This document shows, one piece after another, positions 5,412 through 63,613 of a stretch of DNA of 64,000 bases. The stretch comes from Terriglobus roseus (GTDB lineage: Bacteria; Acidobacteriota; Terriglobia; Terriglobales; Acidobacteriaceae). The translations under genes and the position numbers were made by a program. The notes beneath the pieces were generated by a model, which did no database searches, was not told the origin of the DNA, and saw only the letters and a list, made by a program, of their open reading frames with translations. Every line of letters starts with the position of its first letter. The stretch's first letter is position 1. Location of the stretch: the NCBI RefSeq assembly GCF_900102185.1, contig NZ_LT629690.1:3286001-3350000 (forward strand). Reading direction: 5' to 3'.

Positions 5412-7213
5412 CGCCGCGACAGCGAAATCTCGATGCCTGCAAGAATGCCTCGCCCCGGCATGCGGATGCTTTGAATCTCCGCATAGCCGGTGTTGTACAA
5501 GTTCGTTCCTTGCACATACGGACGCACCATGCCGCGATCGCGTGATACTGCAAAATCCACAGTGCTGTAAGGCGTTTGCCCCACACGCTGCGTCACTGTG
5601 AATGCTGGCCGCAACGCGACCTGCGAACTCGCATGAAGCCACGCCTCCACGCGCGCGCGATTCGTGGGGAACTGAAACACAAGCTGCGACTGCTGCCCTT
5701 GCAAGACATCCTGCGAACCAAAGATGGCAGTCCAGTTCACCTTCAGTTGTTGGTCGCCCTGCAACCGCATTTGCACAGATGTTTCAATGCCCGTTAGACG
5801 CACCTCGGCAAGATTCTTGGCCTGCCACTTATCCGCAACAGAGCGGCGCACATAATCAATCGCGTTTTGCTGACGCGCGTAGAAACCGGTCACCGATGCA
5901 GCAACGCGTGTCGACGGATACCAATCCACACCACCATCAAAATTCCACGCCGTCTCCGGCTTCAGCGAAGGATTACTGATCGTCGTTGGATCGTTGTAAT
6001 AAAGATTGGTGTAAGTCGGCAGACGGAAACCATAGCCCGCACTGCCGCGCAGCTTCCATACGTTATGCAGCAAAAAGCTCGCAGCAAACGAAGGCGCAGA
6101 CACCACACGCCCGCCGCTCAAAATCTCTTCACGCAATCCGATGGAAAAATTCGCGGCTCCACGATGCAGATCCGCATCGGCATACAGTGACGTACGATTG
6201 CGCCCATGCTGCCCCAGGCTATTGCTTCGAATGCTGTCAGTGTTCTCTTCCGTGCCCACAAACAGTTTTCCCGCACGCCCTAATGTGACGGTCTGCCGCA
6301 ACGCCCCCTGCCAACTGGCGTCGACATGATTGTTCGCGTAATACGCCGGATTCGTTCGAGTCAAAATGTAATTATCCGCATGCCTCCGATACGCAACGGC
6401 AGCGGTAGTCTTCTCACGGAAAGCCTGCGTGAATCCAACAAACCAACCCTTGGTTCGTTCCCACGAGTTGTAGTTTCCATAGAACTGGTTCGCGCCAAAC
6501 GAGCGATCACTTCCAGCCAGCAGCAGATCCGATTCGCCCAGCGATGACGTCGTGCGGCCTTCTGCACTCGCGCTTTCACTTCGGTAGTCGCGGCCCGGGA
6601 TGAAGCCGGTTGAGAAATCGCGCTCCCCTGCAACAACAAGACTTCTCATCTGATTCGCAAGAGCACCCGTCACTGCCTGCTCATTTCCGCCAAAGCTTCC
6701 GCCACCCGCGCGCAGTCGCAGCGAACTCTCCCGCGGTTTCCACGTACTCACATGCACGACACCTGCAAGCGCATCCGCACCGTATAACGTGGACCCCGAA
6801 CCATGCAGCACGGCGAGCCCGCCAACTGCCTGCTGCGGCACTGGCACATCCAGGTTGAAGTGCGAGGCCTGCGCATCATTGATGCGAAACCCATTCAGCA
6901 GCACCAGCGTTTGTTCAAACGTGCCGCCACGAATGCTCACGTCAGACTGAACGCCCATGGCGCCGCGCTGCTGAATGTCCACCGACGAATCAGAACGAAG
7001 TCCATCCGCAATTTCCTGCAACGAAAGCGACATCGGCTGCGTATCAATTACCTGAACGGAGCGCGCGGTCTGTCCCAGTGCAACGGGCTCAGCCTCACCC
7101 ACAACGGTAACGGTCTGCTGAATATCCTGCGGCTGCTTTTGTTGACCAAAGCAAGAGCCGAACAACGCAAGAACAGGAAGCACATCAAAAGAGCGGCGTA
7201 AACGGACAATCAT
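5408..7213 (-). CDS. TonB-dependent outer-membrane receptor (BtuB-like)
   Basis: About 601 residues. A signal sequence (VLPVLALFGSCFGQ) is followed by a TonB-box-like stretch (QQTVTVVGEAEP), the plug domain (DVSIRGGTFEQTLVLLNG, LHGSGSTLYGADALAGVV) and a 22-strand-type barrel, ending GILAGIEISLSRR. The plug and short barrel resemble BtuB/FepA-type receptors for cobalamin or siderophores; the substrate is unknown. ATG 7213 is chosen because the signal peptide begins there; the frame upstream is open but has no secretion signal. It is divergent from the CPBP gene 49 bases away. Its end shares a CTAG with the ABC-F stop. Confidence 0.9.
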   Translation of the reverse strand: MIVRLRRSFDVLPVLALFGSCFGQQKQPQDIQQTVTVVGEAEPVALGQTARSVQVIDTQPMSLSLQEIADGLRSDSSVDIQQRGAMGVQSDVSIRGGTFEQTLVLLNGFRINDAQASHFNLDVPVPQQAVGGLAVLHGSGSTLYGADALAGVVHVSTWKPRESSLRLRAGGGSFGGNEQAVTGALANQMRSLVVAGERDFSTGFIPGRDYRSESASAEGRTTSSLGESDLLLAGSDRSFGANQFYGNYNSWERTKGWFVGFTQAFREKTTAAVAYRRHADNYILTRTNPAYYANNHVDASWQGALRQTVTLGRAGKLFVGTEENTDSIRSNSLGQHGRNRTSLYADADLHRGAANFSIGLREEILSGGRVVSAPSFAASFLLHNVWKLRGSAGYGFRLPTYTNLYYNDPTTISNPSLKPETAWNFDGGVDWYPSTRVAASVTGFYARQQNAIDYVRRSVADKWQAKNLAEVRLTGIETSVQMRLQGDQQLKVNWTAIFGSQDVLQGQQSQLVFQFPTNRARVEAWLHASSQVALRPAFTVTQRVGQTPYSTVDFAVSRDRGMVRPYVQGTNLYNTGYAEIQSIRMPGRGILAGIEISLSRR

Positions 7214-46071: not shown

Positions 46072-46483
46072 TGCGTTCGTTTCCTTGCGGGCTGGTTGCC
46101 CTGTGTTTCGTTTTAGGTTGATCCCCGCATGTTGCGAGAGAAACAAAATCCTTGCCATGGCCGTGGGCGGTGTCCCCCGGTTGCATTGCGATTCTCCTTG
46201 GCCGGAGGCGAGGGGAGGAAATCGCGAAAACCCCCGCCACCGCCCTGCCATGGTCTTTGTGTCAAGGACCCGCGGCTCATGCAGCGGGTTCAGTGTGTAG
46301 ACCGGATATTTCCCGGCTTGTTCTGAACCTTAGGAGCCATCTGCCGCCGCGCGGGTTGCCCACGCGGGTTCCTCCCCCAGATTGCGCACCCTTTCCGCTG
46401 CCGACCAGTAGAGAATCGGGCATGATACCCTCCGTGTCCGCACCTCCGCGTACAAGGAAAGGTTCACAGGAGATTTGCTGCCT
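46072..46483. other. 412-base gap upstream of ftsK, no gene seen
   Basis: No open frame with coding character is present on either strand. Two short GC-rich repeats (GCGCGGGTT and CACGCGGGTT) lie near 46352-46370. It should hold the promoter of ftsK and that of the PA2169-like gene, but neither can be placed with confidence. Confidence 0.4.
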
Positions 46484-49198
46484 ATGAAGCCGCTCCGCCT
46501 GGAGATGACCCCCACCCGCAGCCGTCGGCTGAACGAAGTCCTCGGCCTGCTGCTGCTGGCAACTGCCGTATTGCTGGTACTTTCGCTGGTCAGCTATACC
46601 CCCGACGACCCCTCCCTCAATACCGTCGGCGGATTCAGCGGAACCACCGCGCTGCGCCCCGTCCACAACTGGGTCGGACGCATCGGTGCGCTCCTGAGCG
46701 ACCTCCTCCTGCAGATCCTCGGTATCGCCGCCTTCGTCTTCCCCATCATGCTCGGTCGCCTGGGCATCTGCTGGATGCGCTCGCAGGCGCAAGGCTCCCC
46801 CGCCGCCAAGACCATCGGCCTCGTACTCTGGATCCTCGCCGCCCCCACCGCCTTCGCGCTCCTGCCCATGCACCTCCTGTGGCGCAGCGCTCTACCTATT
46901 GAAGGCGCCCTCGGCCGTGTCCTCTCCGGCTTCATCGTCGGCCTGCTCAACTACCCAGGCGCCTGCGTGGTCGTGGGCCTGCTCGTTCTTCTCAGCCTCT
47001 ATCTCTCCACCACCTTCACCTTCAACACCGCACAGGACTGGGCAGGCCAGCGCCTCGGCATCTTCGGACGCGTCCGCGAGCGCTATCTCGCATGGCGCGG
47101 CGACCGTGGCGACCTGAAAGCCGCACGAGCCGCCAACAAGCTGGAAACCCGCCGCGAACGCGAAATTGCCCGTCAGGATGCCATCAACGCCAAGGCCACT
47201 GCCGCAGCCCAACGCGCTGCCAACGGCGGCTCGCTCATCACCAGCCTCTTCGCCAAGTGGAGCCTATGGCGCAAGGGCATCCGCCCCGACTCCGAAGTCG
47301 TCGACGACATGCCTGCCTCCCGCTCCATGTGGTCCAAGATGCCGCGCACCAACGTCGACGCAGCCCCCGACCCCGAATTCGCGCCGCTGCCTCACCACCT
47401 GCAGCAGGAAGCCGACGAAGCACTCCAGGCCGAAGTCACCGGCATCGACGCTCCGCTCAACGGCAGCATGCTCGAAGCCGCACCCGCACAGGAAAACTTC
47501 GCCGACTGGCACCAATCCGCACCCACCGCTCAGGACGATCAGGCCTTCGCCTGGCTGAACAGCCGCGGCCAGGAACAGCAGCGCCCACGCACCGCCGAAG
47601 TCGTTCCGTTCCCCGCCCCCACAGCCGCGCGCATGGACCCCCCGGCACCGCCCGCTCCGCCGGAAGACAAAATCTCCTTCGGCAAGCGCGCCGACGAGTC
47701 CATCAAGACCGTCACGCTCACCGCCAAATCCGTCCACGGCTACAAGCTGCCGCCGTCGTCGCTGCTGCACCACGACAACAAGCACGCCGCCGTCCGCGAA
47801 GAAGCCCTGCGCGAAGAAGCCCGTGTCCTCGTTGAAAAGTGCGGCGAGTTTGGCGTCGACGGCCAGGTCACCCAGATCAACCCCGGCCCCGTCGTCACCA
47901 CCTTCGAGTTCCGTCCCGACGCCGGCGTCAAATACTCCCGCGTCACCGGCCTCGCCGACGACCTCTGCCTCGCCATGGCCGCCGAGTCCGTTCTCATCGA
48001 ACGCATGCCCGGCAAATCCACCGTCGGCATCCAGGTCCCCAACAGCGATCGCGAAACCATCTGGCTCCGCGACGTCGTCGAATCCGAAGGCTTCGCCAAC
48101 TCCCGCTCCAAGGTCGAAATGGCCATGGGCAAGGACATTAACGGCCGCATCGTCACCGCCAATCTCGCGGCCATGCCCCACGTCCTCATCGCAGGCTCAA
48201 CCGGCTCCGGTAAATCGGTCGCCATCAACGCCATGATCATGAGCGTCCTCTTCAAGGCCACACCCGAAGAAGTCCGCATGATCCTCGTCGATCCCAAGCG
48301 CGTCGAACTCGGCATGTACGAGGGCATCCCGCACCTCTTCACGCCCATCATCACCGAGCCCAAACTCGCCGCCAACGCACTCCGCAACGCCGTCCGCGAA
48401 ATGGAGCGCCGCCTCAAGCTCCTCGCATCGCGCCACGTCCGCAATCTCGACCAGTACAACAAACTCTTCGACAGCGGACAGCTCTTCAACGAAGACGGCG
48501 AAGAGCAGCAGCCCCTGCCCTACATCATGATCATCATCGACGAGCTCGCCGACCTCATGATGCTCGACAAGGCCAACGTCGAAGAGTCCATCACCCGCCT
48601 CGCACAGATGGCCCGCGCCGTCGGCATCCATCTCGTACTCGCCACGCAACGCCCCAGCGTCGACGTCATCACCGGCCTCATCAAGGCCAACGTCCCCACG
48701 CGTATGTCCTTCCGCTTGGCGACGAAAGTCGACAGCCGCACCATCATCGACAGCAACGGCGCAGAATCGCTCCTCGGCCGCGGCGACATGCTCTTCCTGC
48801 CACCCGGCACATCACGTCTCCAACGCGTCCACGCACCCTTCGTTACTGAGAAGGAAATCTCCGACGTAGTCGAATTCTGGAAGCAGCAGGGCGAAGCCGA
48901 ATACGCAGAAGGCTTCCTCGAAGGCCCCAAGGACGACAAGGGCAACAGCCTCTTCGACGGCGAAGGCAACAACGACCAGGACGAACTCTTCGACGACGCA
49001 GTCCGCCTCGTCTTCGAATTCGGCAAGGCCAGCACCTCGCTACTGCAACGCCGCCTACGCATAGGCTACGGCCGAGCCGCCGCCCTCATCGACATGATGG
49101 AACGCGACGGACTGGTAGGCCCTGCCGACGGCAGCAAGCCCCGCGAAATCCTAAAATCCCCAGACTTCTACCGCGAAGTAGACGAAGCCCTCCGCTAA
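46484..49198 (+). CDS. ftsK: DNA translocase FtsK
   Basis: About 904 residues. The N-terminal membrane domain (about 20-185) has four helices, followed by a long Pro/Ala-rich linker (about 190-430). The motor carries Walker A GSTGSGKSVAIN (about 569) and Walker B IIIDELADLMM, with RPSVDVITG. The last about 65 residues form the winged-helix gamma domain that reads KOPS/dif-adjacent sites (LFEFGKASTSLLQRRLRIGYGRAA). It pumps chromosome ends through the septum. ATG 46484 is used; an in-frame TTG at 46475 sits too close to the Shine-Dalgarno. A degraded copy of its 3' end lies at 51155-51257. Confidence 0.96.
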   Translation: MKPLRLEMTPTRSRRLNEVLGLLLLATAVLLVLSLVSYTPDDPSLNTVGGFSGTTALRPVHNWVGRIGALLSDLLLQILGIAAFVFPIMLGRLGICWMRSQAQGSPAAKTIGLVLWILAAPTAFALLPMHLLWRSALPIEGALGRVLSGFIVGLLNYPGACVVVGLLVLLSLYLSTTFTFNTAQDWAGQRLGIFGRVRERYLAWRGDRGDLKAARAANKLETRREREIARQDAINAKATAAAQRAANGGSLITSLFAKWSLWRKGIRPDSEVVDDMPASRSMWSKMPRTNVDAAPDPEFAPLPHHLQQEADEALQAEVTGIDAPLNGSMLEAAPAQENFADWHQSAPTAQDDQAFAWLNSRGQEQQRPRTAEVVPFPAPTAARMDPPAPPAPPEDKISFGKRADESIKTVTLTAKSVHGYKLPPSSLLHHDNKHAAVREEALREEARVLVEKCGEFGVDGQVTQINPGPVVTTFEFRPDAGVKYSRVTGLADDLCLAMAAESVLIERMPGKSTVGIQVPNSDRETIWLRDVVESEGFANSRSKVEMAMGKDINGRIVTANLAAMPHVLIAGSTGSGKSVAINAMIMSVLFKATPEEVRMILVDPKRVELGMYEGIPHLFTPIITEPKLAANALRNAVREMERRLKLLASRHVRNLDQYNKLFDSGQLFNEDGEEQQPLPYIMIIIDELADLMMLDKANVEESITRLAQMARAVGIHLVLATQRPSVDVITGLIKANVPTRMSFRLATKVDSRTIIDSNGAESLLGRGDMLFLPPGTSRLQRVHAPFVTEKEISDVVEFWKQQGEAEYAEGFLEGPKDDKGNSLFDGEGNNDQDELFDDAVRLVFEFGKASTSLLQRRLRIGYGRAAALIDMMERDGLVGPADGSKPREILKSPDFYREVDEALR

Positions 49199-49300
49199 CG
49201 CAACAAGCATCTGCAAAACAAACTGCCCTGCGCCATCAAAGCGCAGGACAGTTTGCCGTTTCTGATCTCAACTTCCCACAAGCCCGACTTATCGTCAAAA
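49136..49300 (+). repeat. Direct repeat, left copy (ftsK end plus terminator)
   Basis: This segment, from the last 21 codons of ftsK through the terminator to past its end, matches 51196-51345 in the same orientation. By eye about three quarters of positions agree in the ftsK part, with small indels. The left copy keeps the intact ftsK frame; past the terminator it keeps ACAAGCCCGACTT, which matches the tail of the acr3 gene in the right copy. Confidence 0.8.
49220..49254 (+). terminator. Terminator after ftsK
   Basis: A 14-bp stem with one mismatch (AAACTGCCCTGCGC / GCGCAGGACAGTTT) and a seven-base loop. A decayed form of it, still recognisable as AGCGCAGGGCAG, lies in the second repeat copy near 51296-51309. 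Confidence 0.8.
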
Positions 49301-49317
49301 CCGATACAACAGCGACC

Positions 49318-51036
49318 TCATTCAGGTAACTGCTTTCCACTAACCTGAGGACCACGATCAATATGTTCTGCGTTGAGCGTTTGCATTTGCTTGATGAGCC
49401 TACTGATCACCACGATCGATTTCGAAGCTGCCTGCACCTGCCGCTCCAGCCCTTCCAATCGTTCCTGAATTTCGCCACCACGTTCGATCGGTATCCACGG
49501 GGGAATAGACAAATTTCCATTCCTAAAGTTACTGAGCCTGCACCTGAGCTCATTCTCAATTGCCTTGATGCCAGTCGGCTGCGAAACGGTCTGGAATTTA
49601 TACGTGCCTGCAGCACTCAATCCCTGAGGATTGGTTACTGTGACCTTGATTGTCACGCTGGTCCCCACAGGCGGAAGTGCTGCAATCGTCAGGGTCTCTG
49701 TGTTTGTGGCGGCGGGTGTAGCTCCGGTTACTGACCAAGCAAACTTCAACCCGCGCTGGTCAGGAAATACATTCAGATTTGTAATAACAAATGTCTGCCC
49801 TGTGTTGGCGATCAGCATGGGAGAGCACAAGCTCCCGGATGGGTCCACTTCGATGTCGAGCGGTCCGAATGTAGTTGCGCCAAGCTCCAGAACGGTAACG
49901 TCACGAGTCAGAGTTCTACCTGCATAACTGACCGTCAACGTCACCTTCTTTGTCATGAAGTTAGCCGCCTGCGGCAAAACCACCAGAGGCGCAGATCCGC
50001 TAGTCATTCCCGTGCCAATCGTCAGCACAAATCCCGGAATAATCGTCGCGTCACTGCTCGTGATAACGAGCGGGAGCGGAAAGATCGCCGGATGATCCAC
50101 CGCAATAACAACTGGCACCGGTGAAGTCGCAAGCCACGTCGCCACAGAGGGAGCAGAAAAAAACGCCAGATCCGGCACCGGAAAAACAGTATCCAAAGGC
50201 GGGAAATAGGGTGAGGAATCGCCGCTCGTGCCGGGCGTCGTGGGGTAATGACCATTCACCAGCGCGCTGAACTTTGGCCATGCATTTGTCCAACTATCGT
50301 GTGAAAGATTCTCGTAAACATTGGAAAGATGGCCAGCGCCTGCGTTGACAATGTCCTCGATCGAATAACCGAGCTGGTCGTGCAGATACATCAGAAACAA
50401 CGTGGCACCGGCCACACCGGGATGCATCGGATTGACATCTTCGTCGTTTTCTTCAAGAAAGTTATTTCTGGCGCTGTTCAGCCAGAAATTGGTGCAGGTT
50501 AATACCCCCATAGTCAAAGAGGGCAGGGCTGAGATGCCGGGATATTCCCTGAGCATGAATTGTTCGCCGAGAAATCGCGACAAGGCATCGCCCTTGTTGC
50601 CTGCATTCGTCAGGGCGAACCAGGGAGTCGTTGATCCGTACGTTCCGAACGCACGCATATACATCTCACTTACCGATGAGATCAGCAGATATCTTGCGAA
50701 CATGATGGGAGTGCCCGACATCATGGCGAGTTCGCCAAATGTGATCGTCAACTGCAAGGGAACCAAAAATCCCCCCATCCAGTCGCTGCCAATATCACCG
50801 ATCGGGTTCCCCATCGCGTCCAGAGCCACGGCATTAATCGAGACATGAATGGGCGGAGACATATCAAGCTGGCGACCTGAGAACCACGCTGCCAACAAGG
50901 ATAGGTCCGCATCGCTTGTCTTCATCATCTCCGTGGCGAGATCCACACCCCGAGCTGAACTTAGCGAATCGTCATATTCAAAAATAAAGTATTGGGTCTG
51001 GCCACTATTAGGCAGTCCAGCGGTGGTGTAAGGCAT
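49318..51036 (-). CDS. Unknown protein between duplicated flanks (possible metallopeptidase-like fold)
   Basis: 572 residues from ATG 51036, with AGAGG upstream. No signal peptide is visible. The N-terminal 260 residues have SGRQLDMSPPIHVSINAVALD, RYLLISSVSEMYMRAF, GDALSRFLGEQFM and GATLFLMYLHDQLGYSIEDIV. The last resembles the helix that follows active-site helices in some metallopeptidase-like proteins, but no HExxH is present. Residues about 300-500 look like Ig/PKD-type beta domains (GLKFAWSVTGATPAATNT, TVTNPQGLSAAGTYKF). The end (GEIQERLEGLERQVQAAS) is a coiled coil. Base composition is more AT-rich than the neighbours. I do not recognise the family. Confidence 0.78.
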   Translation of the reverse strand: MPYTTAGLPNSGQTQYFIFEYDDSLSSARGVDLATEMMKTSDADLSLLAAWFSGRQLDMSPPIHVSINAVALDAMGNPIGDIGSDWMGGFLVPLQLTITFGELAMMSGTPIMFARYLLISSVSEMYMRAFGTYGSTTPWFALTNAGNKGDALSRFLGEQFMLREYPGISALPSLTMGVLTCTNFWLNSARNNFLEENDEDVNPMHPGVAGATLFLMYLHDQLGYSIEDIVNAGAGHLSNVYENLSHDSWTNAWPKFSALVNGHYPTTPGTSGDSSPYFPPLDTVFPVPDLAFFSAPSVATWLATSPVPVVIAVDHPAIFPLPLVITSSDATIIPGFVLTIGTGMTSGSAPLVVLPQAANFMTKKVTLTVSYAGRTLTRDVTVLELGATTFGPLDIEVDPSGSLCSPMLIANTGQTFVITNLNVFPDQRGLKFAWSVTGATPAATNTETLTIAALPPVGTSVTIKVTVTNPQGLSAAGTYKFQTVSQPTGIKAIENELRCRLSNFRNGNLSIPPWIPIERGGEIQERLEGLERQVQAASKSIVVISRLIKQMQTLNAEHIDRGPQVSGKQLPE

Positions 51037-51154
51037 GGGACACCTCTCGCAACGTAGCGATCGAATCCTATTGCACGTTTTATTCAAAGAGCAACGAAAT
51101 ATTTAGATGTTTAGTTTGGATAACTACATTCCGAAAGGACTAGGGACAACGGAT

Positions 51155-51257
51155 TCGAATGCGACAAGGATGGACTAATTAAGCAAACCATAACAAACCA
51201 CGCGAAACCCCGAAATCCCATGACTTTTACCGACGAAGTAAACAAGGGCCCCGCTAA
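51155..51257 (+). pseudogene. Degraded ftsK 3'-end fragment
   Basis: In one frame it reads KPRETPKSHDFYR then goes out of frame before a TAA; intact ftsK ends KPREILKSPDFYR...R then TAA. One base is inserted and one lost. Ten of thirteen residues match. Upstream similarity to the gamma-domain end (GAATGCGACAAGGATGGACT against GGAACGCGACGGACTGG) is weaker. It is a relic, not an expressed gene. Confidence 0.7.
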
Positions 51258-51345
51258 CTCAATAACCGCTGTAAAACTAACTGGACCTCGCCATCCAAGC
51301 GCAGGGCAGCTCTTTATGCAGGTAAACACTTACAAGCCGACTTCC
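51196..51345 (+). repeat. Direct repeat, right copy (decayed ftsK tail plus acr3 end)
   Basis: Matches 49136-49300 in the same orientation. It holds the decayed ftsK tail, a decayed terminator and then the 3' end of acr3 (the acr3 stop is at 51330). The two copies are about 2.06 kb apart and enclose the unknown 572-residue gene. Confidence 0.8.
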
Positions 51346-52298
51346 GCCTTATGAACCGGAGTAGAGTACAGCCGCCCCCTCAGCCAGAAGGCCACCTTCA
51401 CCAACCCAATCAGCGTGGGCACCTCGATGAGCGGCCCAACCACCCCGACAAATGCCTCGCCTGAGTTCAAACCAAAGACAGCCACAGCAACGGCAATAGC
51501 CAACTCAAAGTTGTTGCCTGCCGCAGTGAACGACAACGTGGCAGATTGCGCGTAGTCCGCTCCAAGCTGCTTGCCCATTAAGAAGCTGACGAGGAACATG
51601 ATGAGGAAGTAGATCACCAGCGGAACGGCAATTCTCACCACATCCAGCGGAAGCCGCACAATCAAATCGCCCTTAAGCGAAAACATCACAAGAATGGTGA
51701 ACAGCAGCGCCACAAGCGTAAGCGGACTGATGCGCGGCACAAAGCGAGTCCGATACCACTCCTCACCTTTCGCTCGAATCAGCACAAAACGTGTCAGAAA
51801 CCCCGCAACAAACGGCACGCCAAGATACAGTCCAACACTCTTCGCAATATCGACAATGCCAATCGAAACAACGCTTCCAGTCAGCCCAAACCACTTCGGC
51901 AAAACCGTCAGGAACATCCACGCATACACGCTATAAAACAGCACCTGAAAGACGCTGTTAATGGCCACAAGCCCAGCGACATAGTCTGTGTCACCCTCTG
52001 CCAGTTCATTCCACACAAGCACCATCGCAATACAGCGAGCAATGCCAATCAGAATCAAGCCACGCATGTAGGCCGGCTCGCCACGCAGGAAAACAATGGC
52101 AAGCAGGAACATCAGCACCGGCCCAATCAGCCAGTTCTGCACCAGCGAAAGACCAAGAACGCGCTTGTTACGAAACACCTCGCCAAGCTTTTCGTTGCAA
52201 GCAGAGTCCAGTTCCACCTGAGTTCCGGGGAACGTCGGAGTAACGACACGAGTTCCTGTCAAGCCCCCATACCACCCAACCCCAACAAAGCAAAACAA
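51330..52298 (-). CDS. acr3: ACR3 family arsenite efflux permease, 5'-truncated
   Basis: 322 residues. From [20 protein letters not shown] onward it follows the Acr3 family closely: [24 protein letters not shown] (with the conserved Cys), [20 protein letters not shown] and EVPTLIGLV. The normal first 75-80 residues, with the first one or two membrane helices, are missing and replaced by an unrelated-looking stretch ([20 protein letters not shown] then [16 protein letters not shown]). It is probably a broken gene or a fusion and may not work. No arsR or arsC is adjacent. Its end lies in the right repeat copy. Confidence 0.75.
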
Positions 52299-52342
52299 AT
52301 AGAGTTGACAGGTTATTTCTCCAAAATCACTAAAATAGAACT

Positions 52343-52651
52343 ATGCACATCATCCTCTGGGAATTCGTCGTACCTGCGAACGCTCAAGAGAATTTCAAGC
52401 AGGCATACGGCCCAGAGGGAGATTGGGCGCGCCTCTTCCGCCGCGCGGAGGGCTACCTTGGAACGGAACTACTTCACTCACAAGACAAACCCGACATCTT
52501 CCTGACCGTCGACCGATGGCAAACCGCCACCCACTTCGAGCGTTTTCAAGACGACTTCGCTCACCAGTACCGCGAACTCGATCAAAAACTCGAAGGAATC
52601 AGCACCTCCGAAAGGAAAATCGGGGTGTTTTCAACCATCGATCCCATCTAA
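52343..52651 (+). CDS. Antibiotic biosynthesis monooxygenase (ABM) family protein
   Basis: 102 residues, one ferredoxin-like ABM domain: MHIILWEFVVPANAQENFKQ, RAEGYLGTELLHSQ, DIFLTVDRWQTATHFERFQDDF. Family members oxidise or bind small aromatics and many are uncharacterised. No clear Shine-Dalgarno lies upstream of the ATG. It is followed by a 24-base repeat array. Confidence 0.82.
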   Translation: MHIILWEFVVPANAQENFKQAYGPEGDWARLFRRAEGYLGTELLHSQDKPDIFLTVDRWQTATHFERFQDDFAHQYRELDQKLEGISTSERKIGVFSTIDPI

Positions 52652-52742
52652 CTCGTTTAGAAAGACGATTTTGCCCCTAACCCCAATGGGTAGACGATTT
52701 TACAGCCACTCCCGCCGTAACCCCAATAGAAAGACGATTTTA
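52649..52742 (+). repeat. Three-copy direct repeat of about 24 bp
   Basis: Three copies begin at 52649, 52678 and 52718. The second and third share TAACCCCAAT-NNNN-AGACGATTTTA; the first reads TAACTCGTTTAGAAAGACGATTTT. All end in AGACGATTTT. Spacing is 29 and 40 bases, so this is not CRISPR-like. The first copy starts at the ABM stop codon. A G-rich run and the palindrome GGGGTACCCC follow (52751-52780). Confidence 0.8.
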
Positions 52743-52833
52743 GAAAAATAGGGGGGAGGGGGGTACCCCACCCCGGCGTGTCGTAGGAAGACACTTCTGA
52801 AACGTCTCAGAGAACTGCTAGGATGTTCGCGCC

Positions 52834-53322
52834 ATGCGATTCGCTTCCACCGCGCTGCTGATCCTCCTTGCCGCTCCTCTTCTCCACGCGCAGGGTCGCG
52901 GCGGTGACGACGACCACAAACCCGTCAACGACACCGCGACGATCCACTACACCTGCGCGGTCGACGGCGTGCAGATCGTCTCGGACAGTGATTCCGGCCA
53001 GCACTACACGGACACATCGCCCAAGGTGAAGTACATCCTGCCCATTGAAGGCGCACGCGCACGCGGCGAATGGAACGAGGTGGAGCGCCTCGCGCAGATG
53101 TCCATGGTCGCCGCGCCCAAGTGCTATCGACCCTACTTCAGCCACGCGCAATACCTCATGCACCAGTGCAAGCTGCCGGAGGCAAAGGTAGCCCTGGAAG
53201 ACTTCCTCCAGAAGGCCGAACACGCGCCAGGATATGAGCAGTACGTGACCGTAGCGAAGAGCGCCATGGAGACGATCGACAGCGGCCGCGACCCAACTGG
53301 CTGCACTGCTCCGCCGAAGTAG
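52834..53322 (+). CDS. Small secreted protein with TPR-like helices
   Basis: 162 residues with signal peptide (ASTALLILLAAPLLHAQ). After a disordered GRGGDDDHKP stretch, the protein is mainly helical (GARARGEWNEVERLAQMSMVAAPK, PYFSHAQYLMHQCKLPEAKVALEDFLQKA), with four Cys in the mature part. This fits a short tetratricopeptide-like repeat. Function is unknown. It is convergent with the next gene, only 3 bases apart. Confidence 0.72.
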   Translation: MRFASTALLILLAAPLLHAQGRGGDDDHKPVNDTATIHYTCAVDGVQIVSDSDSGQHYTDTSPKVKYILPIEGARARGEWNEVERLAQMSMVAAPKCYRPYFSHAQYLMHQCKLPEAKVALEDFLQKAEHAPGYEQYVTVAKSAMETIDSGRDPTGCTAPPK

Positions 53323-59475: not shown

Positions 59476-59524
59476 GGTAGATTTCTGCATTCGGGAGGAC
59501 AATTGCCCGCGTAACCAGTTCTTG

Positions 59525-61015
59525 ATGACGCTACGACTCCCCGCTCTTGTCTCGTCCGCACTGTTTTTCTTTGCCGCTCCAGTCTCTGAAGCACAGATTC
59601 CTTCACCTGATATTTCTAAGCCCACGCCGCTGACAGTGAGCGTGTGGGATCGTCAGCGCGTGAATGTAACGCAGTGGTTTTCCGCCACACCCAATGCAGA
59701 ACAATATGCCCACGTCGATAGCCTTTTGCGCATCGCATTGCAGCAGCGCATCAAGCGCATTGACTGGACAGCCGAACTTTCGCAAAACAGCGAACTATGG
59801 CTGCCAAACGATGCTGTTTCGCCCGTGCCTGCACAGGGACATCTTGGCCTTGGCGGTACCTATTATGCGCACAATGGCAACAATCGTTTCCCCGCTGTTG
59901 CTTCATTCAAGCAGGGATGGATACGCTATCACTTTGCGCATGATTCCAACACCATTCGCCTGGGCCGTTTCGAATTCACTGATGGAACAGAAATTAAACC
60001 TACCGATAAGTCGCTTCAGTGGTTGCAGGCGAACCGCATCGCACAGCGCCTGATCGGCTCCTTTGGTTTCTCCAACGGCCAGCGTTCGCTGGACGGTGTG
60101 GAGGTAAAGGTAAACAAGGGTTCATGGGATGTAACTGCGATGGGTGCGCGCGCCGTGCAGGGTGTGTTCAACATGAACGCGAACCCGGAACTGGATGTGG
60201 ATGCGCAGTATCTCGCATGGTCGCGTACAGCGGCGAAACAACACGTATTGGTGCGTGCGTTTGCCATCGGCTATCACGACGGGCGCACGGGCGTTACGAA
60301 AGTAGACAATCGCTCACAGACCGCACGCACTGCAGACCATAACAACATTCGAATCGGTTCTTATGGAACCAGCATGATCGCGGCTGTTCCTGTCTCAAAA
60401 AACGTGAAGCTCGACGGTCTGTTCTGGGGTGTTTTGCAAAACGGACGTTGGGGTGTGCAGGATCATCGCGCAGGTGCGGTCGCACTTGAAGGCGGTGTGC
60501 AGTTTACGCAGGTGAAATCTTCGCCGTGGATTCGTGGTGGATTTCTACGCACCACGGGCGATGAGAATCCCAACGAAAACACACACAACACTTACTTCCA
60601 GGTGTTGCCCACACCACGCAACTATGCGCGATTCCCTTTCTTCAACATGATGAATTCGAAGGAAGCGTTTGTGCAGTTGATGGATAAGCCGACACCTAAG
60701 CTGGATATCCGTACCGATCTACACTTCCTCGGCCTGACCAGTCGCAGCGATCTTTGGTATTTGGGTGGCGGCCCGCTGGATAAAACGACCTTCGGTTACA
60801 CGGGGCGTCTCGCGAACGGAAACAGTAGTCTGGCCACGTTGTATGACATCAGCGCGGATTATCAAGTAACACCACGCCTCTCACTTACTGCTTATTACGC
60901 GCACGTATGGGGCAAAGACGTGGTGCGTGCGATCTATCCCGTAAACACACATGCGCAGTTCGGCTTTATGGAAATGAACTATCGATTCAGCCTGCCGCTA
61001 CAACGCACTCATTAG
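59525..61015 (+). CDS. Alginate-export (AlgE-like) family outer-membrane protein
   Basis: About 496 residues with signal peptide (LVSSALFFFAAPVSEAQ). The mature part is a long outer-membrane barrel: IRLGRFEFTDGTEIKP, RLIGSFGFSNGQRSLDGVEV, YQVTPRLSLTAYYAHVWG and a final FGFMEMNYRFSL. These resemble the AlgE-like alginate-export family (DUF3138-like and similar). Substrate unknown; likely a sugar or oligosaccharide porin. ATG 59525 is used; a TTG one codon earlier is also open. Confidence 0.82.
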   Translation: MTLRLPALVSSALFFFAAPVSEAQIPSPDISKPTPLTVSVWDRQRVNVTQWFSATPNAEQYAHVDSLLRIALQQRIKRIDWTAELSQNSELWLPNDAVSPVPAQGHLGLGGTYYAHNGNNRFPAVASFKQGWIRYHFAHDSNTIRLGRFEFTDGTEIKPTDKSLQWLQANRIAQRLIGSFGFSNGQRSLDGVEVKVNKGSWDVTAMGARAVQGVFNMNANPELDVDAQYLAWSRTAAKQHVLVRAFAIGYHDGRTGVTKVDNRSQTARTADHNNIRIGSYGTSMIAAVPVSKNVKLDGLFWGVLQNGRWGVQDHRAGAVALEGGVQFTQVKSSPWIRGGFLRTTGDENPNENTHNTYFQVLPTPRNYARFPFFNMMNSKEAFVQLMDKPTPKLDIRTDLHFLGLTSRSDLWYLGGGPLDKTTFGYTGRLANGNSSLATLYDISADYQVTPRLSLTAYYAHVWGKDVVRAIYPVNTHAQFGFMEMNYRFSLPLQRTH

Positions 61016-63130: not shown

Positions 63131-63613
63131 CTACTTCGCCCTCACCTTCACCACGAAATAACGGAAAGTGCTGCCGGGTTTCAGAATCATCTGATGCGGC
63201 GTGCCAGGTTCAATGCGAATGGCGTCACCTGCATGAAACGGCTGGCGTTTGCCACCACTTACACTATCGCCGCGCTTCTCTCCCGGCGCGGTGTCTTTAG
63301 CATTCACCACCGTACCGCCGGTCACCACTTCCGCTTCACCCTCCAGGCCGATCAAGACATCTGCGAAGTCCTGATGCCATTCTCCCTGGCCGCTCTTCAC
63401 GCGCACGGCAAGCTGTTCCGCACCATCCGGACGCGTCAGCAAAACCTTGAACGCGATGCCGTCTTTCGAAGCACGCGCCTGTTTCAACAGATCATCGCCC
63501 GTGCTGCGAAGCGTAGCGGCGGTAACCATGTCACTGGGCGGCACGGCGGTCTGCGCGACGAGCGGGGATGCAACAACGGCAAGCGCAAACGTAGCGCCGA
63601 AAAGATACTTCAT
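63131..63613 (-). CDS. Secreted cupin domain protein
   Basis: 160 residues with signal peptide (FGATFALAVVASPLVAQ). The single cupin barrel has QGEWHQDFADVLIGLEGEAEV and HAGDAIRIEPGTPHQMILKPG. One of the usual metal His residues is still present in each motif. Function unknown. It is on the same strand as tdk, 51 bases upstream of its start. Confidence 0.82.
   Translation of the reverse strand: MKYLFGATFALAVVASPLVAQTAVPPSDMVTAATLRSTGDDLLKQARASKDGIAFKVLLTRPDGAEQLAVRVKSGQGEWHQDFADVLIGLEGEAEVVTGGTVVNAKDTAPGEKRGDSVSGGKRQPFHAGDAIRIEPGTPHQMILKPGSTFRYFVVKVRAK

Follow-up and report, generated by a model that had tools for sequence, protein, structure and literature searches.

Integration hotspots lie at tRNA genes and at the 3′ ends of genes such as icd; REP, ERIC and Correia are intergenic repeats, and integron cassettes carry attC sites. 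The gene slots described here resemble each of these in part. As at tRNA and icd hotspots, there is a fixed landmark, cargo that changes on one side of it and a displaced gene 3′ end; unlike at those hotspots, we found no integrase or repeated att core, and the landmark is a non-coding repeat present in about 44 copies. Like REP, ERIC and Correia, this repeat is dispersed, with intergenic copies at many loci and a hairpin in many of them; unlike them, it is about 240 bp long, occurs in 4 of 81 genomes (all Terriglobus) and marks a one-sided change in gene content. As with integron cassettes, single genes are gained at a repeated sequence, but the sites are dispersed rather than gathered in a cassette array, and one repeat bounds each slot and stays while the cargo changes.

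A further likeness is to homology-facilitated illegitimate recombination (HFIR; PMC3240628), the products of which have one anchored and one illegitimate end, gain whole genes without a mobility gene, show microhomology of 3–10 bp and are usually accompanied by a deletion of similar size. Our slots may follow a similar pattern: the repeat holds one end constant, the far ends are heterogeneous, whole genes are gained with no mobility gene found, and one seam has a possible microhomology (CGCATA, its spacing shifted). As described there, HFIR is tied to neither a dispersed repeat nor a fixed side, unlike the slots here.

The DNA analysed (the window) is a 64,000-nt stretch of genome G000, a single contig of 4.85 Mb. 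Its slot between the core genes ftsK and Y has these features:

46475..49198, + strand: ftsK, intact, the left core gene of the slot (Pfam FtsK 4TM, alpha, SpoIIIE and gamma domains)
49135..49251, + strand: left tail copy L, comprising the 3′ end of ftsK and a terminator hairpin that is intact (alignment to R; hairpin -22.6 kcal/mol)
49276..49290, no strand assigned: candidate acr3-tail remnant, only suggestive (shuffle tests)
49318..51036, - strand: gene U, 572 aa, the slot cargo in G000 (homologues; no Pfam family above cut-off)
51037..51104, - strand: upstream stretch of U common to its homologues (blastn matches end at 51094 and 51104; alignment)
51194..51309, + strand: right tail copy R, a second ftsK 3′ end, decayed, with a broken terminator (alignment to L; hairpin -9.5 kcal/mol)
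51330..52198, - strand: acr3 remnant without its N-terminal part (Pfam SBF; matches only residues 79-368 of the G013 acr3)
52195..52198, no strand assigned: seam of a deletion of about 2 kb relative to G013 (blastn blocks stop and resume there)
52257..52344, + strand: left part of the dispersed repeat (model 1-88), with the slot's right border at its TGTCAAG end (profile match 62.8 bits)
52343..52651, + strand: 102-aa ABM-domain gene inside the repeat (Pfam ABM 27.9 bits, cut-off 23.1)
52647..52768, + strand: right part of the repeat (model 118-239; profile match 137.5 bits)
52834..53322, + strand: Y, the right core gene of the slot (97.5% identity to G013, 68% to G011, 69% to G004)

Contents of the slot differ among relatives. 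In G013, of the same genus, the order is ftsK, L tail, gene X, R tail and acr3, then arsR, arsM and an arsC-like gene that scores above the Pfam LMWPc cut-off and below the NCBIfam cut-offs. Gene X is an alpha/beta hydrolase on the other strand, unrelated to gene U. The ars operon beside R is full in G013 and truncated in the window, where 52195-52198 corresponds to positions 6297 and 8288 of L040; the roughly 2-kb deletion took the acr3 start, arsR, arsM and most of arsC. This truncation of acr3 goes beyond what had been predicted from the window alone. G000 has a second, intact acr3 at 1.72 Mb, 96% identical to that of G013. Y follows ftsK after about 0.1 kb in G011 and G004; the whole segment is absent there, which places the enclosed gene in an acquired segment. 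In G001 and G018 the gene after Y adjoins ftsK. Only the window's genome shows a decayed R, the ars deletion and the ABM gene. Set beside its relatives, the locus reads as a gene slot between ftsK and Y that has been filled and that bears the scar of a local duplication.

In a comparison of 12 long ftsK loci within the genus, acr3 followed ftsK only in that of G013. The original prediction had named unlinked ftsK and acr3 in related genomes as an outcome that would count against it, and this is largely what a survey of 398 family genomes (best two candidates per genome) returned: among the matches listed, ftsK and acr3 met in a contiguous junction only in G000 and G013. As a separate observation, gene order after ftsK is rearranged in G007 (L041, G007:C3:160500-176000), with no ars genes or Y within 12 kb.

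The direct repeat proposed at the ftsK/acr3 junction is real. Our best local alignment, of window 49135-49251 with 51194-51309, scores 98, and no dinucleotide shuffle out of 1000 scored above 30; its start-to-start spacing is 2058 in the ungapped part. Under looser scoring the alignment continues to about 49325, with identity in 142 of 181 aligned columns. The right copy was correctly described as a degraded ftsK tail. Its ftsK part is decayed and frameshifted in the window, where only 42 of 64 aligned bases match the intact R of G013, against 811 of 865 for acr3 in the same two genomes, and its terminator hairpin has -9.5 kcal/mol compared with -24.6 kcal/mol in G013. The L copies of the window and G013 have features in common, against the two R copies. 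A comparison of L with R in G013 over 126 coding bases shows six synonymous changes and one non-synonymous change; with most differences synonymous, the two seem to have parted as working ftsK ends. (The P of 0.001 for R of G013 is too small, as it also counts changes on the selected L branch.) A single old event followed by neutral decay in both genomes fits poorly with an R that is near-intact in G013 and decayed in the window. The contrast would be compatible either with two unequal histories or with unequal decay.

For the left copy, the intact ftsK end was as described, and the degraded acr3 tail, ACAAGCCCGACTT, is only suggestive. Unanchored, it was equalled by 54 and 67 of 2000 shuffles under strict scoring and by 136 and 383 of 2000 under loose scoring; anchored at the terminator, it was equalled in 15 to 68 of 3000 shuffles, and 18 to 22 of 3000 random window segments scored equally.

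Duplication of a core-gene end was also considered as a general signature of such slots and rejected. It was absent in 12 of 13 zones at 11 slots, and the thirteenth held only 20-31-nt REP-like matches; the L040 zone in this test has the acr3 deletion seam as its start, which places the ftsK slot itself outside the retest. The extra ftsK tail is a local seam, not a trait of other slots, and the scar taken alone would be an ordinary seam of an acquired segment.

We found no recombinase or transposase in Pfam scans of 20 neighbouring proteins plus U, ftsK, acr3, ABM and Y; several of the scanned proteins match no family, and serine and other recombinases were covered by the scans of these listed neighbours. 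The tyrosine-recombinase family PF00589 has nine matches in the genome, the nearest about 0.48 Mb from the slot. As direct repeat cores, the two ftsK tails are present at the slot, decayed in the window. The attachment sites that the original prediction had proposed to look for did not turn up near the slot, and neither did an integrase. Of its scar of an integrated element, the acquired segment, absent in G011 and G004, and the real tail duplication are supported; a mobile element with attachment sites is not supported.

Gene U is indeed antisense to ftsK and AT-richer, as first noted, with a GC of 0.526 against 0.646 for ftsK and 0.576 for the window, yet acr3 is close to it at 0.539. U has a paralogue in G000 at 0.436 Mb (73% identity) and a homologue in G013 (66%), and these two share a position elsewhere, with neighbours in common. 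Three weak matches were found in genomes from another family of the order. No Pfam family reached its cut-off for U, and neither NCBIfam nor PHROGs gave a match; PDB gave no sequence match, and the genome_contigs database and viral contigs gave none either. Plasmids gave a single weak match (26% identity over 48%), and we rejected a phage, plasmid or viral origin for U.

Around the locus, G000 and G013 show little divergence at four-fold sites, 76/688 (0.110) for three genes, compared with 455/1188 (0.383) for eight genes at 45-63 kb with a G011 counterpart; two divergent genes (35-37 kb) and an ORF at 63194, likely false, were excluded from this comparison. Further dips occur in the window, with genes at 0.16-0.20 and one ORF at 0.04, and for that reason block exchange around the locus is rated as no more than suggestive. 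Elsewhere in the window, at 59522-61015, there is an alginate-export-like gene that is also in G011 and is missing at the same place in G013.

The repeat at the right border of the slot surfaced from a search with the second ars locus, which gave dozens of matches per genome among the best 40 candidates. Its consensus from 41 aligned copies is 240 bp, with TGTCAAGCCC at the left end, a G-rich right end, three motifs that end in GACGATTTT and, in many copies, a hairpin. Searching 81 genomes with at most two mismatches, we found 44 pattern matches in G000, 45 in G013, 27 in G007 and 3 in G005 (those three with two mismatches each), none in the other 77 genomes and none with the reversed control. 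Each of the 40 copies whose positions were examined has an open frame on either side, and every orientation occurs. The repeat had no match in phages or plasmids, and its pattern had none in viral contigs in a search for exact matches; a phage, plasmid or viral origin was rejected for the repeat as it was for U. At the gathering score Rfam matched neither the split copy of the window nor the full copy of L051; it gave only two tRNAs, both in the window. A limited literature search returned no description of this repeat or of a one-sided repeat hotspot.

The window copy is split by the ABM gene, whose TAA stop coincides with the first TAA in the right part of the repeat; the orthologous copy in G013 is uninterrupted. 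In other split copies the gaps are only 27 and 7 nt (L168 and L110). The split repeat was rejected as a general gene cassette, as twelve further loci with half-length matches had no ORF between the halves. A 25-bit repeat fragment in L051 was removed from the set.

Gene content beside the repeat changes nearly always on its left, at or near the TGTCAAG end. In an initial check of 20 G000 copies, 15 shared a flank, eight of them only one. Ten G000/G013 pairs were then compared over longer distances, eight of them picked for a one-sided flank match without regard to side: right sides were syntenic for 6 kb in nine and for about 4.2 kb in the tenth, and left sides changed within 0-250 nt of the repeat. 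A later test used every available copy. Orthologues were found for 42 of the 44 G000 copies, and synteny was broken on the left at 22 of the 42 and on the right at none; the window slot is scored as a left break because of its ars deletion. A stricter rule gave 22 left-only breaks, 1 right-only and 19 intact, with L195 and L223 switching class between the two rules (the left flank match of L223 is only 270 nt). The lone right break is L219, which maps to the same G013 copy as L213, perhaps through rearrangement; without these two, the first of the two rules gives a broken left side at 21 of 40 copies and a broken right side at none. Breaks anywhere across the 3-kb right flanks number 8 of 42. 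By chromosome strand, the variable slots divide into 10 and 12.

The third genome agreed. With 24 of the 27 G007 copies tested, comparison with G000 gave 17 left-only breaks, no right-only break, 4 intact copies and 3 unmatched or weak; comparison with G013 gave 17, none, 3 and 4. In each comparison three of the 17 left breaks, where the match resumes after 150-640 nt in both, could be diverged spacers.

On the left, the genomes mostly have whole genes that differ. Near presence/absence was seen in 12 of 22 variable slots, where the left core gene lies about 130 nt or less from the repeat in one genome and the filled version has 0.15 to 5 kb of extra DNA. GC of the zones beside the repeat is 0.551, compared with 0.589 in the right flanks (P 6e-6, 33 zones, unresolved slots being cut at 1.5 kb); a few of these 33 zones and of the 32 nearest cargo genes are therefore core (e.g. 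A2SITE, L191). Ten of the 32 genes were scanned, with matches to phosphotransferase, DUF1254/DUF1214, TetR, short-chain dehydrogenase, DUF3738, PF00144 hydrolase, DUF1508 and DUF4435, a sub-threshold match to DJ-1 and one gene without a match; no recombinase was among the ten.

Within the repeat, copies in variable slots stay orthologous in the right part and are less alike in the left 60 nt, where identities in informative columns are 0.58, 0.68 and 0.73, against 0.70, 0.80 and 0.91 in conserved slots; in columns 121-200 the values are 0.81 for variable and 0.75 for conserved slots. This pattern would fit joining within the repeat's left part. The first ten columns are 0.96-0.98 identical, even among paralogous copies. 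Short spacers beside the repeat also differ between genomes. The far ends of the slots have no common motif, and TGTCAAG occurs there twice in 80,198 bases, compared with about 5 expected per strand. The CGCATA mentioned above lies at the X/R seam in G013; as a possible microhomology it is short, with its spacing shifted by about 5 nt.

We infer a mechanism of one-sided gain that we consider a real possibility and stop short of calling probable: the ftsK-Y slot would be bordered by a repeat that stays while the left-hand DNA changes through one-sided, HFIR-like joining. One end of the incoming DNA would be joined at the repeat's left part or within it, and the other would form an illegitimate junction in the manner of HFIR. 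At the ftsK slot an ars block would have come in that either brought a second ftsK 3′ end along or displaced one, and each species holds its own gene between the two tails. Divergence of the repeat's left part, together with far ends that lack a motif or TGTCAAG, leads us to prefer such joining to classical att-site integration. Recombination at a repeat should, however, act in both directions, which leaves the polarity unexplained by this model. The deletion of similar size that usually goes with HFIR is a further point against it, the state before insertion being represented here by outgroups without the repeat. Since the model leaves the left-only change unaccounted for, site-specific docking remains a close rival. 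There the left end of the repeat would be the target or attachment site of a putative recombinase or transposase, always on that side. The choice of side resembles that of integrases at tRNA genes, the polarity is strict, the first ten columns are conserved as just described, and near-empty and filled versions of slots exist. We nonetheless find docking somewhat unlikely, given far ends without excess TGTCAAG or a common motif, scanned cargo genes without a recombinase, and short repeat-adjacent spacers that differ as well.

One might instead see the repeat as a bystander at ordinary intergenic hotspots, its contents swapped via the flanking core genes and the side set by the first insertion site. 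The low four-fold divergence around the locus is what block exchange would leave, but such dips are not unique in the window, and polarities of 22 to 0-1 and 17 to 0 relative to repeat orientation are not what this account predicts; we regard it as improbable. In an account built on the original prediction, a circle or mobile element would have entered by a Campbell-type crossover in the ftsK end and left two tails, with the cargo exchanged later. Two tails in direct order around cargo in two species would follow from it, as would differences between L and R of G013 of the kind expected of two functional ftsK ends; with no recombinase nearby and no such duplication in the other zones tested, we hold it very unlikely as an account of the slot. 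Campbell-type insertion of a circle is a possible route to the ftsK scar.

We return to the reading that we prefer, one-sided gain at a repeat that stays. Some forty slots have this repeat as their right border, which suggests that in these genomes short repeats mark both the place and the side of gene gain. Should further strains show the polarity too, a short non-coding repeat would help decide where these soil bacteria gain genes and on which side; a repeat family would then be tied to gene gain in the Acidobacteriota, and the mechanism would become testable. Slightly more doubtful is the wider proposal that a Terriglobus clade carries a dispersed, clade-specific element of 240 bp, the left end of which would serve foreign genes as a polarised docking point, reusable at about forty places, through a mechanism not described so far that needs no enzyme gene in the cargo.

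Some copies had further features. The repeat RNA of L040:8340-8595 is more stably folded than shuffles on the + strand (z -4.0) and less clearly so on the - strand (z -1.8). In several slots, L127, L133 and L152 among them, the last 120 nt to the left of the repeat often hold a shorter REP-like palindrome (CGCCGAAGGCG...GCACGAAGTGC) that directly abuts its left end. In G000, L213 and L219 match the left and right flanks of one G013 copy, L233, as if two repeats had recombined. At locus L051 (G000:C1:1716000-1732000) another copy of the repeat has a second, complete ars operon at its left end; in L143, with L253 (G013:C1:653000-659500), the core gene lies only about 52 nt from the repeat of the L051 slot.
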